From: Dehalococcoidia bacterium
Lineage (GTDB): Bacteria > Chloroflexota > Dehalococcoidia > Bin125
NCBI GenBank assembly: GCA_022825855.1
Contig: JAJDWB010000019.1
Coordinates: 372,001 to 436,000, forward strand
Direction: 5' to 3'
Length of the DNA: 64,000 nucleotides
Position 1 is the stretch's first letter. Every line of letters starts with the position of its first letter. This document shows positions 38,165 to 43,729 of the stretch, in pieces. A model generated the notes under the pieces. The model did no database searches. It was given only the letters and a program-made list of their open reading frames with translations, and was not told where the DNA came from. A program made the translations under genes and the position numbers.

Positions 38165-38212
38165 GGGTTCAGGTCAGCAATCACGGCACGGCAGAGCGGG
38201 GGATTCGGAACC

Positions 38213-39091
38213 ATGAGCAAGTACGCATTCTGGCCGGGCTGCGTGGCGCGAGGCGCGGCGCCCGAACTCTACACCTCGACGCTGGCCGTGGCCGAGCACC
38301 TGGGCATGGACCTGGTCGAGCTCGAAGCCGCTGCCTGCACTGGCGCCGGGATCATCTCCGACGGCGAGCCGTACCTCCAGGATGTGCTCAACGCCCGCAC
38401 GATGGCGATGTCGGAGCAGATGGACTTGCCGCTGATGGACATCTGCTCGACCTGCGTCGGCGTGCATCGACTGGCCGCGGAGAAGTTCCGCGATGTCGAC
38501 TACCGCATCCGCATCAACCACCACCTGGCTCCCGAGGGTCTGGAGTATCGAGGCACCGCCGACCCTCGTCATCTGCTCTGGATCATGCTTGAGGACGTTG
38601 GCATCGACCGGATCAACTCGCTGGTCAAGAAGCCGTTGGAGGAACTCAGCCTCGGCCCGTTCTACGGCTGCTACATCATCCGGCCCGAGCGGACGCTCGA
38701 CTTCGACGAGCATCCCACGCGACGCAACAGCCTCGAGCAGTTGATCGAGATCCTCGGCGCAACCACGGTCACGTATGACGGCATGACCAAGTGCTGCGGC
38801 TTCCCGATTCTGACGATGAACAAGAAGAACTCGTTGACGATGGCCGGCACTCACCTCGACGAGGCGCAGTCCAAGGGCGCCGACGCGCTGGTCACGCCCT
38901 GTCCACTCTGCCACCTCAATCTCGATGCTCAGCAGCCCGATGCGGCCAAGGTGATCGACCGCAATCTCAACCTGCCGATCCTCCACGTGCCCCAGCTCCT
39001 CGGCCTGGCCATGGGGATTGAACCGGAGAAGCTGGGTCTGACCCGCCACGTCGTGGACACCAACCGCTTGCTCAACAAGATCGGCGCGTAG
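38213..39091 (+). CDS. CCG-domain protein, SdhE/HdrB-like subunit of succinate dehydrogenase
   Basis: A 292-residue cysteine-rich protein that replaces the usual SdhC/SdhD membrane anchors in so-called E-type succinate:quinone reductases, and resembles subunit B of heterodisulfide reductase. The second CCG motif is complete: C153, CC at 194-195 (KCCGFP), and C230/C233 (CPLC). The first has C10, C42, C78 and C81, but position 41 is alanine rather than the expected second cysteine of the pair. No membrane helix is evident. A strong terminator-like hairpin follows. Confidence 0.88.
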   Translation: MSKYAFWPGCVARGAAPELYTSTLAVAEHLGMDLVELEAAACTGAGIISDGEPYLQDVLNARTMAMSEQMDLPLMDICSTCVGVHRLAAEKFRDVDYRIRINHHLAPEGLEYRGTADPRHLLWIMLEDVGIDRINSLVKKPLEELSLGPFYGCYIIRPERTLDFDEHPTRRNSLEQLIEILGATTVTYDGMTKCCGFPILTMNKKNSLTMAGTHLDEAQSKGADALVTPCPLCHLNLDAQQPDAAKVIDRNLNLPILHVPQLLGLAMGIEPEKLGLTRHVVDTNRLLNKIGA

Positions 39092-39115
39092 CCACAAGTT
39101 TGGCCAGGACAGGAG

Positions 39116-39145
39116 CGCCCCCGACCGGCGGACCGGTCGGGGGCG
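39116..39145 (+). terminator. Strong hairpin after the sdh genes
   Basis: Thirteen-base perfect stem: CGCCCCCGACCGG and its complement around a CGGA loop. It begins 25 bases after the SdhE-like stop. No T-run follows. The GGGGGCGAC end resembles the REP-like hairpins near 18.4-19.7 kb. Confidence 0.7.
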
Positions 39146-39181
39146 ACACAGGCAACTGGAGGGTGGCCAGTCGGAGAGGTG

Positions 39182-39208
39182 ACCGATGTCTCCCATGCGG
39201 ACATCGGT
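39182..39208. terminator. Inverted repeat between sdh genes and peptide permease
   Basis: Nine-base arms ACCGATGTC/GACATCGGT with a nine-base loop, in the convergent gap upstream of the permease stop at 39319. It may help terminate either transcript. Confidence 0.45.
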
Positions 39209-39318
39209 GGGCGGGCGGGGTGACAGTTCTACCGTCTGACCTCACTGACCCTCCGCCATACAAGACGACGGCAGGGGTCGAAAGGTTCCCGAGCGGTCGA
39301 GAAATGTCGAATGTAGGG

Positions 39319-40275
39319 TCAGGCTCCGGCGCCGGTGCCGCGCAGGCGCGGGTCAAGTACGTCGCGCAGGGCGTCCCCGAGCAGGTTGAAGGCCAGCACG
39401 ATCAGCGTGATCGCCGCGCCCGGGGTCAGGGCCAGCCAGGGCCAGCGGTCGAGATTGCCGCGCTGGGTCGCCTCGAACAGAATGAAGCCCCAGGTCGGAT
39501 TCTCCGCCGAGTTCGCGCCCAGTCCCAGGAACGACAGTGCCGCCTCGGCGAGAATGGTGCCGCCGATCGTGACTGATGCGATCACCAGGATCGGCGCCAT
39601 GATGTTGGGCAGAATGTGGCGGGTGATGATCCGGCCCGGTCCCGCGCCAATCGTGCGCGCGGCTTCGATGTACGTGTTCTCCAGCGTGGAGAACACGGTC
39701 CCGCGCACGACACGCTGAGTCCCGGGTATCAGGAAGATGACAATCACCAGGATCACCGTGGTCATACTCGGAGTCAGCACTGTGACCAGCGTCATCATCA
39801 GCAGCAGCGGCGGCAGCGCCTGGAAGGCATCGGAGATGCGCTGCAACAACAGGTCGGTCACGCCGCCTGCGTAAGCCGAGATCATGCCGATGACCATTCC
39901 GCCGAGGATGCCCAGGCCGGTCGCAACAATGCCGATCACGATTGCCGGCCGCGCGCCGTAGATAATCCGGCTGAAGAGGTCGCGGCCGAGCGAGTCGGTG
40001 CCCGCGATATGTTCGGGGAACGTGGGGGCGGCCAGCTTGTTGATGATGTTGGTCTCGCTGGCTGGATGCGGCGAGAAGCCGGGAATGATCGTGCTCCCGC
40101 CGATGTTGATGTCTTGCCCGAAGATCGCGGCGACGATCAGGACGAAGATGAAGGCCGCACCGATTGCGCCGAGCGGCTTGTTGCGCGCGTGGCGACGCCA
40201 GGTGACCCACCAGCGCGGACTGTCGCCACGCAGGTCGAGTGCGATTGGATCTGCGGCTTCGGTTGCGGTTGACAT
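39319..40275 (-). CDS. Peptide ABC transporter permease (DppC type)
   Basis: A 318-residue inner-membrane permease. It shows the first helix near residues 38-55 and FPEHIAGTDSLGRDLFSRIIYG typical of DppC. The EAA loop reads NTYIEAARTIGAGPGRIITRH. It lacks the LysM-like loop of the other DppC-type gene in the window (25719-26888). It is last in the operon, 30 bases after the DppB-type gene. No ATPase gene is adjacent. Confidence 0.93.
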   Translation of the reverse strand: MSTATEAADPIALDLRGDSPRWWVTWRRHARNKPLGAIGAAFIFVLIVAAIFGQDINIGGSTIIPGFSPHPASETNIINKLAAPTFPEHIAGTDSLGRDLFSRIIYGARPAIVIGIVATGLGILGGMVIGMISAYAGGVTDLLLQRISDAFQALPPLLLMMTLVTVLTPSMTTVILVIVIFLIPGTQRVVRGTVFSTLENTYIEAARTIGAGPGRIITRHILPNIMAPILVIASVTIGGTILAEAALSFLGLGANSAENPTWGFILFEATQRGNLDRWPWLALTPGAAITLIVLAFNLLGDALRDVLDPRLRGTGAGA

Positions 40276-40305: not shown

Positions 40306-41268
40306 CTAGGAGTACCGGATCCGCGGATCGAGCCATGCGTAGCTCAGGTCGACGAGGATGTTGATGAACACCACGCCAAAGCCGACCACGAGCGAAATGC
40401 CCAGCACCAGGGTGAAGTCCACCTGGCGGATGGCGCGGACCGCGAGCGCACCGATGCCGTCGATGCGGAAGATGAACTCGACGATCACGGCGCCCGAGAT
40501 CAGGAAGGCGAACTGGTTGGCGAAGATCGTGATCACCGGAATCAGCGAGTTGCGGATCACGTGCCGCATGATGATCGCACGTTCCGCCAGCCCTTTGGCG
40601 CGAGCCGTGCGTACGTAGTCCTCGTTGACCACTTCAAGCACCGTCGAGCGCTGCATGCGCATCACGGTCGCCATCAGCGACGCGGACAACACGAGTGAGG
40701 GCGCAATCAGCCCTTCGAGGTTGTGCGCGACTCCATCCCAGATGTAGGGAGGATCAATGGTCGAGAGCGACACGTTGAGCCAGGCCGCCGCAAAGGTCAC
40801 CACCAGTACGGCGAGGAAGAAGTTGGGCACGGCGAGCCCGAGGATCGCGAAGATCCTGGAGATGTAGTCGCCCGCTCCGCCCTGCCGGATGGCAGAGAAC
40901 ACTCCAATCGGTACCGCCAACAGCGATGAAATCAGCGTCGCCATGATCACGAGCTGGATGCTGCGCGGCAGGCGGTCCTGGATCTCGCCCCAGACAGGCA
41001 GGCTGGTGGCGAACGACTTGCCGAGGTCGCCGTTGACGGCGTCCCAGAGCCAGTTGCCGTAACGCTCGAGCACCGGCTTGTCGAGACCGAGATCGATCTC
41101 GTACTGCTCGATCTGCGCCGGAGTCAGGTTTACACCCTGCGGGCTTTGATTGAGTATCCGAGTCAGCGTATTCCCCGGAACCGCGTTCACCAACATGAAC
41201 ACTATGAACGACAACATCAGGAGCACAAAAAGTGCGCCGACGATTCGCCTGATGATGTAACCAGTCAC
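40306..41268 (-). CDS. Peptide ABC transporter permease (DppB type)
   Basis: A permease of about 320 residues. It starts with TGYIIRRIVGALFVLL, as DppB proteins do, and carries NEDYVRTARAKGLAERAIIMRHV as its EAA loop. GTG at 41268 is preferred because the family starts with the helix; an in-frame TTG at 41304 adds 12 residues but overlaps the base of a hairpin. It is read after the binding protein and the small cysteine-rich protein genes. Confidence 0.9.
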   Translation of the reverse strand: MTGYIIRRIVGALFVLLMLSFIVFMLVNAVPGNTLTRILNQSPQGVNLTPAQIEQYEIDLGLDKPVLERYGNWLWDAVNGDLGKSFATSLPVWGEIQDRLPRSIQLVIMATLISSLLAVPIGVFSAIRQGGAGDYISRIFAILGLAVPNFFLAVLVVTFAAAWLNVSLSTIDPPYIWDGVAHNLEGLIAPSLVLSASLMATVMRMQRSTVLEVVNEDYVRTARAKGLAERAIIMRHVIRNSLIPVITIFANQFAFLISGAVIVEFIFRIDGIGALAVRAIRQVDFTLVLGISLVVGFGVVFINILVDLSYAWLDPRIRYS

Positions 41269-41307: not shown

Positions 41308-41346
41308 GCGGTGAGGTAGCCACCAAGCGGGCGGCTACCTCACCGC
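41308..41346 (-). terminator. Perfect 14-base inverted repeat inside the transport operon
   Basis: GCGGTGAGGTAGCC (41308-41321) and its complement (41333-41346) around an 11-base loop. It lies 22 bases after the small cysteine-rich gene and just before the DppB-type gene. It could terminate or attenuate transcription, or protect the upstream mRNA so that binding protein and small protein are made in excess. Confidence 0.65.
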
Positions 41347-41368: not shown

Positions 41369-41707
41369 TCAGCCAAAGCAGACTCTCCCCACGTACCAAC
41401 AGAACTGCCAGCAGCCTCCTGGGTTGCATGCGATATGGCAGGCATAGACGTCCACGCAGTTCTCCTGTTTGGGCTGGATGTCATTCCAGACACCTGACCC
41501 GCCGGCGTGGCCGAACTCAGCGGCTATCCCAGTTGTACCGCAGTAGTCTTGCTGGAATATGACGGCGCTTGGCCCGGCAATTTCGATGCCTGGGTCCGCT
41601 GTCGTGACATCTGCCGCGAGTGCGCCAGAAGTGTCGATGCTGATGGAAACCAATGCAACTGCGACAGTTGCCACGGCGATAAGCAACCACGTCTGTAGCC
41701 GTTTCAT
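41369..41707 (-). CDS. Small secreted cysteine-rich protein
   Basis: A 112-residue protein that I do not recognise. Residues 1-32 form a clear signal peptide (KR then WLLIAVATVAVALV, with GALAA before the likely cut). The mature ~80 residues contain seven cysteines, C56, C84, C90, C94, C99, C103 and C110, six of them packed in the last 27 residues with aromatic residues (CWQFCWYVGRVC). Such a pattern suggests a disulfide-stabilised secreted mini-protein. AAGGGTGATGAC precedes the ATG. It lies between a peptide-binding protein gene and its permeases on the same strand. Its composition is less GC-biased than the neighbours. Confidence 0.75.
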   Translation of the reverse strand: MKRLQTWLLIAVATVAVALVSISIDTSGALAADVTTADPGIEIAGPSAVIFQQDYCGTTGIAAEFGHAGGSGVWNDIQPKQENCVDVYACHIACNPGGCWQFCWYVGRVCFG

Positions 41708-41761
41708 GTCATCACCCTTCGTTTGAGCTGTGATGTGCGTGTGTGTGGGGGGGTGAGATGC

Positions 41762-43729
41762 TTAGGTGTTCTTCCAGATCCTCTCCGTGTTGGTGGCGCC
41801 CCAACCGGGGTTCCAGGCGTTGTAGGTGTCCATCTGGCCGAACAGGTACTCGCGTCGCGCGGCCATGCGGTACGGGTTGACGCAGAAGATGCGCCACATG
41901 TTCTCGAGTTCGCGGACGCGGATCTTCTCGAGAATCTCGGAGCGCTTCTCGACATCCAGCTCCTGGCGCTGCTCGACCGCCCACTGGTCGACATCCGGGT
42001 CGTTGATCCCGTAAATGTTGCCGGGGCTCTCGGAGTGCATGCGGCCGTAGGCGAGACCGTCGGCGTCCATCTCACTGCCGACCAGCCAGGTGAACAGCGT
42101 GTCGCTGTATTCCTTGTCGAAGAGGAGACCGAGCCACGATTCCCACTCGATCTGTTCATGTTCGACTTTCGCGCCGAGGTTGCGGTTCCACTGGTCAATG
42201 ACCAGCAGGAAGTGGTCGAGGTAGAAGCCAGGCACGGTGTGGAACGCAGCCTGGAAGGAGAGCGGATTGTCGTCGTTGTATCCGGCGGCATCGAGGAGGC
42301 GTCGGCCTTCTTCGGCGTTGAAGATATGGAAGTCCCCCAGTTCTTCGAACGTCCAGGGCCACTCGCGGAAGCCCCAGGGCGATGTCTCGTCCTTGAAAAA
42401 GGTCCAGTTCTGGCCGTACCCGCCGGCGGCGAGGCCGTAGTAGACGCCGGCCGCCTGCTCGTCGCGGTCCATGCCCAGCGACAGCGCCTGACGCACACGC
42501 GGGTCGTTGAACGGCTCGGCGGTCAGGTCCTTGAAGGTCATGTGCGGCTGCCAGCCCGGAGGCGGCGCCGTGACCTGGACGACCATGTCCGGGTGCTGCT
42601 CGATCGCGCGGTCGTACTCGGTGATGTCCTGCAGCCGGATCCAGTCGGTCTCGCCGGTTTCCCAGGCGGCCCACTCGGACTCGCGCTGGCCGACGAAGTC
42701 GAGCCCGTGGATGTTGTCGATGTAGGGCAACTGCATGCCGGTCCGCGGATCGAGCTTGTGGTACTCGGGGTGCCGGCTGCCGCGCCACTCCGAACCGGTG
42801 GTCGCGCTGTCGAGCTGGAAGGGCCCCGTGCCGACCGTGTTCTCGGCCAGGTCGAGCAGGCTCGGCTCCTCGACGAACTCCGGCGCCACGACCGTGTGGA
42901 ACGGGTTCATCATGTTGTTGAGCAGGTACGCTGCCGGCTCCGCAAGGTTGAAGCGGACGTTGTTGCTCGCGTTGTCGTAGTCGATGCTGTTGACCGCGGT
43001 GTAGGAGGACGCCTGCACGCGGCCTTCCTCGCGCAGCGCGTCGTAGGCGATCTTGACGTCCTCGGCGGTCATCGCGCGACCGTTGACCGGCGGCTTGTCC
43101 TGCCAGGTGATGCCGTCCTGGAGTTGGAAGACGACGGTCGTCGGCTCGGGGACTTCCCATCCGGCTGCCAGGTCGCCCTCGTTGACGTAATAGTGAGCGT
43201 TCGAGAAATCGTCCATCGGGAAGACGATGAGCTGGCTATAGAACATGGGCGCGAAGGCGGCCATGAGGCTCGCGTTCGTACCTAGCACATTCCAGTTCGC
43301 CGGGGCCGCGTGCGCCAGACGCCAGGTGCCGCCGTGCTTGGGGCCGTCGGCCTGGCCGGGCAGGTTCTGCAGCTTCGACCAGTGATAGCGCAGCCGCCAC
43401 TCTTGCTCGGCGGTCAGCGACATCGCCTCTTCCTCGGCGGTCAACTGACCGGGGAGCAGCGCGACGGCCTGCTCTTCGGCGGCCTCCTGCTGGGTTGCGG
43501 CCTGCTGGGTTGCGGCCTGCTGCGCATCCTGCTGCGCTTGCACCTGCTCCTGATCGGGCTGCGGCTGGGCCTGGGCCTGCGCGGCTGCCTGCTGATCGTC
43601 ATCGTCATCGCCACATCCGACCAGGGCGAGGCCGGCCGCGCCGACGCCGGCCCGGGCGGACGCCGAGATCAGCGAACGGCGGCTCAGGCGCTTGCGCTGC
43701 ATCCTCTTCCAGTAGTTGCGTTCTGACAT
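41762..43729 (-). CDS. Peptide ABC transporter substrate-binding lipoprotein with Tat signal
   Basis: A 655-residue family 5 solute-binding protein. The N-terminus has a twin-arginine motif (SRRSLISAS) and then a lipobox-like ALVGCG, so it is probably exported folded and lipid-anchored. A long Gln/Ala/Glu linker (about residues 40-95) precedes the binding domain, which starts around HGGTWRLAHAAP. Regions such as WEVPEPTTVVFQLQDGITW and NGRAMTAEDVKIAYDAL match OppA/DppA proteins. AAGGAG lies 10 bases before ATG at 43729. The C-terminus ends in TERIWKNT. It heads the minus-strand transport operon. Confidence 0.92.
   Translation of the reverse strand: MSERNYWKRMQRKRLSRRSLISASARAGVGAAGLALVGCGDDDDDQQAAAQAQAQPQPDQEQVQAQQDAQQAATQQAATQQEAAEEQAVALLPGQLTAEEEAMSLTAEQEWRLRYHWSKLQNLPGQADGPKHGGTWRLAHAAPANWNVLGTNASLMAAFAPMFYSQLIVFPMDDFSNAHYYVNEGDLAAGWEVPEPTTVVFQLQDGITWQDKPPVNGRAMTAEDVKIAYDALREEGRVQASSYTAVNSIDYDNASNNVRFNLAEPAAYLLNNMMNPFHTVVAPEFVEEPSLLDLAENTVGTGPFQLDSATTGSEWRGSRHPEYHKLDPRTGMQLPYIDNIHGLDFVGQRESEWAAWETGETDWIRLQDITEYDRAIEQHPDMVVQVTAPPPGWQPHMTFKDLTAEPFNDPRVRQALSLGMDRDEQAAGVYYGLAAGGYGQNWTFFKDETSPWGFREWPWTFEELGDFHIFNAEEGRRLLDAAGYNDDNPLSFQAAFHTVPGFYLDHFLLVIDQWNRNLGAKVEHEQIEWESWLGLLFDKEYSDTLFTWLVGSEMDADGLAYGRMHSESPGNIYGINDPDVDQWAVEQRQELDVEKRSEILEKIRVRELENMWRIFCVNPYRMAARREYLFGQMDTYNAWNPGWGATNTERIWKNT

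Follow-up and report, generated by a model that had tools for sequence, protein, structure and literature searches.

The window, by which we mean the whole stretch of 64,000 nucleotides analysed here, appears to come from a genome of the Dehalococcoidia and holds on its minus strand a peptide-type uptake operon in which the gene of a family-5 substrate-binding lipoprotein (SBP) is followed by a mini-gene, and then by two permease genes of the DppB/NikB and DppC/NikC types (Table 1). The placement of the mini-gene between the lipoprotein gene and the permeases, all on the same strand, had been described in an earlier note on this DNA and was confirmed with the Pfam models SBP_bac_5 and BPD_transp_1. 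The SBP N-terminus (SRRSLIS...LVGCG), judged by eye, fits a twin-arginine/lipoprotein signal, and the GTG start of the first permease was inferred by alignment with the ATG of its relatives. Among NCBIfam models, the SBP and the permeases are nearest to Opp/Dpp/Nik and miss every curated cut-off, so that the substrate of the transporter is not nameable. As read from the list of open reading frames, the transport genes of the operon are the SBP and the two permeases only; no ABC ATPase gene was recognised just past dppC (window 38174-39319), and the operon showed neither a regulator nor a processing gene.

Table 1. Features of the operon around the mini-gene, in the order of transcription (positions in the window)
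Feature	Position	Strand	Evidence
Family-5 substrate-binding lipoprotein (SBP)	41762..43729	-	PF00496 (SBP_bac_5) E=1e-40; start ATG
AAGGG, Shine-Dalgarno-like	41715..41719	-	read from sequence; ~8 nt upstream of the mini-gene ATG
Exported Cys-rich protein, 112 aa, 7 Cys	41369..41707	-	exact bounds of the open reading frame, start ATG; G013 homologue at the same junction (L003:1480-1836, minus)
N-terminal export signal, extent approximate; hydrophobic stretch LLIAVATVAVALVSI	41624..41707	-	hydropathy, AF2 helix
C-terminal core NCVDVYACHIACNPGGCWQFCWYVGRVCFG, conserved; predicted beta-hairpin, NPGG turn, three potential cross-strand cystines	41372..41461	-	core alignment, shuffles z = 8, AF2 strands
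SBP-permease junction hairpin, after the mini-gene	41308..41346	-	arms 41308-41324 / 41330-41346, 17 nt, 94% complementary
DppB/NikB-type permease	40306..41268	-	PF00528 (BPD_transp_1); NCBIfam Opp2B 290 bits, below its cut-off
DppC/NikC-type permease	39319..40275	-	PF00528 (BPD_transp_1); NCBIfam Opp4C 238 bits, below its cut-off

The mini-gene starts 54 nt past the SBP stop codon and encodes the protein MKRLQTWLLIAVATVAVALVSISIDTSGALAADV...NCVDVYACHIACNPGGCWQFCWYVGRVCFG, with cysteines at positions 56, 84, 90, 94, 99, 103 and 110. Its length, its seven cysteines and its export-type N-terminus were all as previously described, the six clustered cysteines occupying residues 84-110 (27 residues), after which FG ends the chain. 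The export stretch has a hydropathy of 2.86 across 15 aa and is modelled as a helix by AF2. Stops are present in the matching frame of the opposite strand, and no promoter-like site was found within the SBP-permease junction.

Among the genomes of the genus (15) and of the family (20), the sole homologue was found in the genome G013, at the orthologous junction, thus extending the conservation of the cysteines and of the operon position to one other genome. It is 118 aa long, with an export helix, seven cysteines and a C-x3-CNPGGCW-x2-C core, and it is 32% identical to the mini-protein, with all seven cysteines kept and the CNPGGCW motif common to both. In shuffle tests the pair reached z = 14 over the whole protein, 8 (8.1) in the core and 0.6 in the linker, and the Cys cores outscored 500 of 500 shuffles; judged by these scores, the Cys core is conserved and the linker fast-evolving. 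The codons of CNPGGCW differ between the two genomes at four nucleotides, all of them third positions, as under protein-level selection, while the junction DNA has no real similarity except a 10-base match at the core. A scan of the genome contigs with a CNPGGCW DNA pattern likewise returned only the G013 contig (RKRS01000222.1). Since a homologue with the same cysteine pattern occupies the orthologous junction and the core outperforms shuffled sequences, the mini-gene is more than chance; it is real but rare. The GC3 of the two mini-genes (0.655 and 0.546) is lower than that of their SBPs (0.89 and 0.78). In regard to the origin of the second genome, Papua New Guinea sponge metagenomes have been described, in which the C. 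singaporensis microbiome includes Chloroflexi (PMC6742649); judging from its isolate name, PNGco_C_binSS7, which matches these metagenomes, G013 probably comes from a sponge.

No further relatives were found in ~700 genomes of the phylum or in a scan of species-representative genomes, and none in viral contigs (searched with the CNPGGCW DNA pattern and the protein), phages or plasmids. The earlier note recognised no family, which was borne out across Pfam, NCBIfam, PHROGs, PADLOC and PDB, where matches were weak and mutually inconsistent; its idea of a protease inhibitor may still hold, but no inhibitor family matches the mini-protein. Several candidates were rejected. The other hits of a class-wide search with a profile of the two-member alignment were weak, fell almost all in the N-terminal export region or the linker, and in several cases lay inside much longer reading frames. 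The remaining matches of a core-only profile in the class and phylum were chance frames, and one match (L002 in G055, E=3e-4) crosses a stop in an unrelated region. A DNA pattern of the cysteine spacing, applied to the family genomes, mostly hit the opposite strand of Q-rich linkers in SBP paralogues, and these matches drowned any others. The TGC/TGT-rich antisense matches (e.g., in G009:C1 and G010:C36) look like such linkers, placed past the lipobox in many SBP paralogues, and would make them a striking genus-wide feature. At the other SBP junctions of the window genome, no second Cys-rich mini-gene of the same type was found. A 133-aa open reading frame does lie ~266-665 nt past the stop of another SBP gene (L070, G000:C16); it has a secretion-like N-terminus, a proline-rich run and four cysteines in a pattern unlike that of the mini-protein.

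All 15 genomes of the genus have the SBP orthologue, as does G017 from a sister genus; elsewhere in the class sample nothing scores comparably. Fifteen junctions were readable, G014 being left out (L031, G014:C18), where the contig stops just past the SBP stop codon. Twelve of the fifteen are without the gene and measure 80-106 bp from the SBP stop to the GY codon of dppB; the junctions holding the mini-gene extend over 499 bp in the window genome (G000) and 546 bp in G013. The gene-less junctions include relatives whose SBP is 94-96% identical. Close relatives match the SBP DNA adjoining the junction at ~90-95% identity, but no alignment is obtained across the junction itself (G008, out of register, was excluded from this comparison). 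The idea that the gene arrived with a mobile element was rejected, the junction having no flanking direct repeats and the hairpin as its sole inverted repeat. In the twelve operons without the gene, the SBP and permease stay intact, which does not support the functional tie to the transporter implied in the earlier note: because most transporter orthologues run without it, the mini-protein is not a required transporter subunit, nor is it a partner that the importer needs or a substrate that it takes up in general. The SBP tree places G000 and G013 in separate clades, both with good support, so the mini-gene is either ancestral with repeated loss, or entered the same position on more than one occasion.

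A third secreted reading frame occurs in G017 (L030:1189-1449, minus strand), where an 86-aa product with an export helix, one cysteine (QCG) and no cysteine cluster is encoded at the same SBP-dppB junction, its stop overlapping the dppB start (GTGA). In the shuffle test its mature part has no significant similarity to the G000 or G013 proteins, and it may therefore be a truncated relative, or unrelated. If it were a truncated remnant, all three could descend from an ancestral secreted protein of this junction that decays through repeated loss and retains little function. Secreted frames at one junction in three genomes of separate lineages would fit such a history, as would the low GC3 of the mini-genes and a G017 frame that lacks the cysteine cluster and runs into dppB. 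However, the Cys core and CNPGGCW survive the large divergence between G000 and G013, and the dissimilar mature part in G017 leaves the remnant without a recognisable link, so this scenario appears unlikely.

In regard to the hairpin past the mini-gene, which has a perfect core of 14 bp, no intrinsic terminator is listed at its position, and as it has no T-run it is not a rho-independent terminator. Rfam returned a sub-threshold microRNA match only, which is attributed to chance. The gene-less junctions of the relatives also have predicted structures of low energy compared with shuffles (z of -2.5 to -4.8 in 11 of 12, G010 being the exception with -1.1), and their hairpin sequences differ widely. 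In G000 (z -3.9) and G013 (z -2.9) the hairpin stands 3' of the mini-gene, with none in the short stretch on its 5' side. The earlier note was right about a perfect 14-base hairpin just after the gene. Yet since relatives without the gene carry one too, the hairpin belongs to the SBP-permease junction rather than to the mini-gene. In the window genome, 8 of the 15 SBP genes (L059-L073, all SBP_bac_5 genes) have a stem of 12-17 bp (G-U allowed) at most 120 nt past the stop, all different in sequence. Through stems of the malE-malF kind, SBP mRNA is maintained at a higher level than permease mRNA. By this analogy, the expression of the mini-gene, which the hairpin separates from the permeases and not from the SBP, is probably SBP-like.

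Structure modelling, to which the earlier note had pointed, was more confident for the C-terminal part than for the protein as a whole. AF2 gave a poor model of the complete mini-protein (pLDDT 49.5), and for the 58-residue C-terminal part it predicted strands at 84-95 and 98-110 with pLDDT 73-81, based on a two-row alignment of the only two clear members. With the turn taken to be centred on P96-G97, C94 would lie exactly across the strands from C99, and C90 from C103, while the C84/C110 pair would be out by one position. The corresponding position sums are 193/193/194 in the mini-protein and 209/209/207 in the G013 homologue; as random placement would give such symmetry with a chance of 3% and 8%, the arrangement of cysteines about the NPGG turn is suggestive only. 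A Foldseek search with the hairpin model had no match at E <= 0.001. The net charge of the C-terminal part is 0 in one homologue and -2 in the other, so that it is not cationic. DSBA-like matches were partial, and a VKOR homologue was looked for and not found.

Taken as a whole, the best reading, to which we assign a probability of about 0.4, is that of a rare lineage-specific cargo gene whose product is exported, evolves fast and acts outside the cell as a beta-hairpin peptide with a ladder of disulfides. The gene is lodged inside the peptide-type ABC uptake operon, past the SBP stop codon and ahead of the junction hairpin, and would be co-transcribed with the SBP, sharing its high mRNA level by its position upstream of the hairpin. 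The exported C-terminus would form a beta-hairpin of two strands with NPGG at the turn, stabilised by a ladder of the cystines C94-C99, C90-C103 and C84-C110, and C56 would be free to make another bond or to join two molecules in a dimer. Outside the cell, the protein could act as a rapidly evolving bioactive peptide, in antagonism or in interaction with a host or neighbours. In any case, the mini-protein is probably an optional exported peptide and not a part of the transporter.

Two other explanations keep the peptide closer to its operon. It could be an exported signal or scavenger that binds to the SBP, either as the mature peptide or as a fragment, and returns to the cell via the adjacent transporter, according to a Phr/cCF10-like logic. 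The mini-gene shares operon and strand with the importer, standing between the SBP and the permeases, and the SBP is of the peptide/nickel family. However, the peptide is not co-conserved with the importer, an oligopeptide importer would not ordinarily be expected to take up a disulfide-laddered hairpin of ~26 residues, and the operon has no visible regulator or processing gene, all of which makes this explanation improbable. We give equally little credit to an envelope accessory, a small metal- or haem-binding or redox-active protein that aids the SBP in a NikA-like function rather than acting as an effector. The CxxxC...CxxxC pattern and the nickel/oligopeptide models nearest to the SBP and permeases are consistent with it, but the SBP scores far below all equivalog cut-offs, the two homologues have no metal-site pattern in common beyond the cysteines, and most operons do without the gene. 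Finally, a spurious frame or an assembly artefact, which a small, GC-poor gene missing in close relatives might suggest, is scarcely credible, being already contradicted by the homologue at the same junction in the independent assembly G013.

Returning to the exported cargo peptide, the mini-protein and its G013 homologue define a new protein family of two members with a testable fold, and the lodging between an SBP gene and the junction hairpin suggests a route to high expression for a secreted-peptide gene. The impact is modest for now. A more specific picture is speculative and quite unlikely to hold as such: a bacterial family of exported beta-hairpin peptides with cystine ladders, so far known from two Dehalococcoidia-type genomes, one of them probably from a sponge, kept at one uptake-operon junction with SBP-level expression and serving as effectors on neighbouring microbes or a host.

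Several known systems resemble parts of this arrangement. The REP-type junction hairpins of malE-malF and hisJ-hisQ also place a strong stem without a T-run past the SBP cistron, but here the sequence varies widely among relatives, and two genomes lodge a gene before the hairpin. Likewise, in the pheromones of the Phr and cCF10/PrgZ type with Opp/SBP uptake a secreted peptide gene adjoins a peptide-type SBP, whereas here the transporter persists where the peptide is missing, the peptide is large and Cys-rich, and no regulator was recognised in the operon. Beta-hairpin antimicrobial peptides and theta-defensins (reviewed in PMC13001179) are similar in the predicted single beta-hairpin with a tight turn and possible nested cross-strand cystines; in contrast to these cationic peptides, the present protein is bacterial, has a longer precursor with a linker, a neutral to slightly acidic core and predicted disulfides, and shows no sequence relation to them. 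Lineage-restricted small secreted cysteine-rich proteins have in common with it the export signal, the Cys-rich mature core, the fast linker and the patchy distribution, the difference being that the gene described here is lodged in a solute-uptake operon, between the SBP and the permease.
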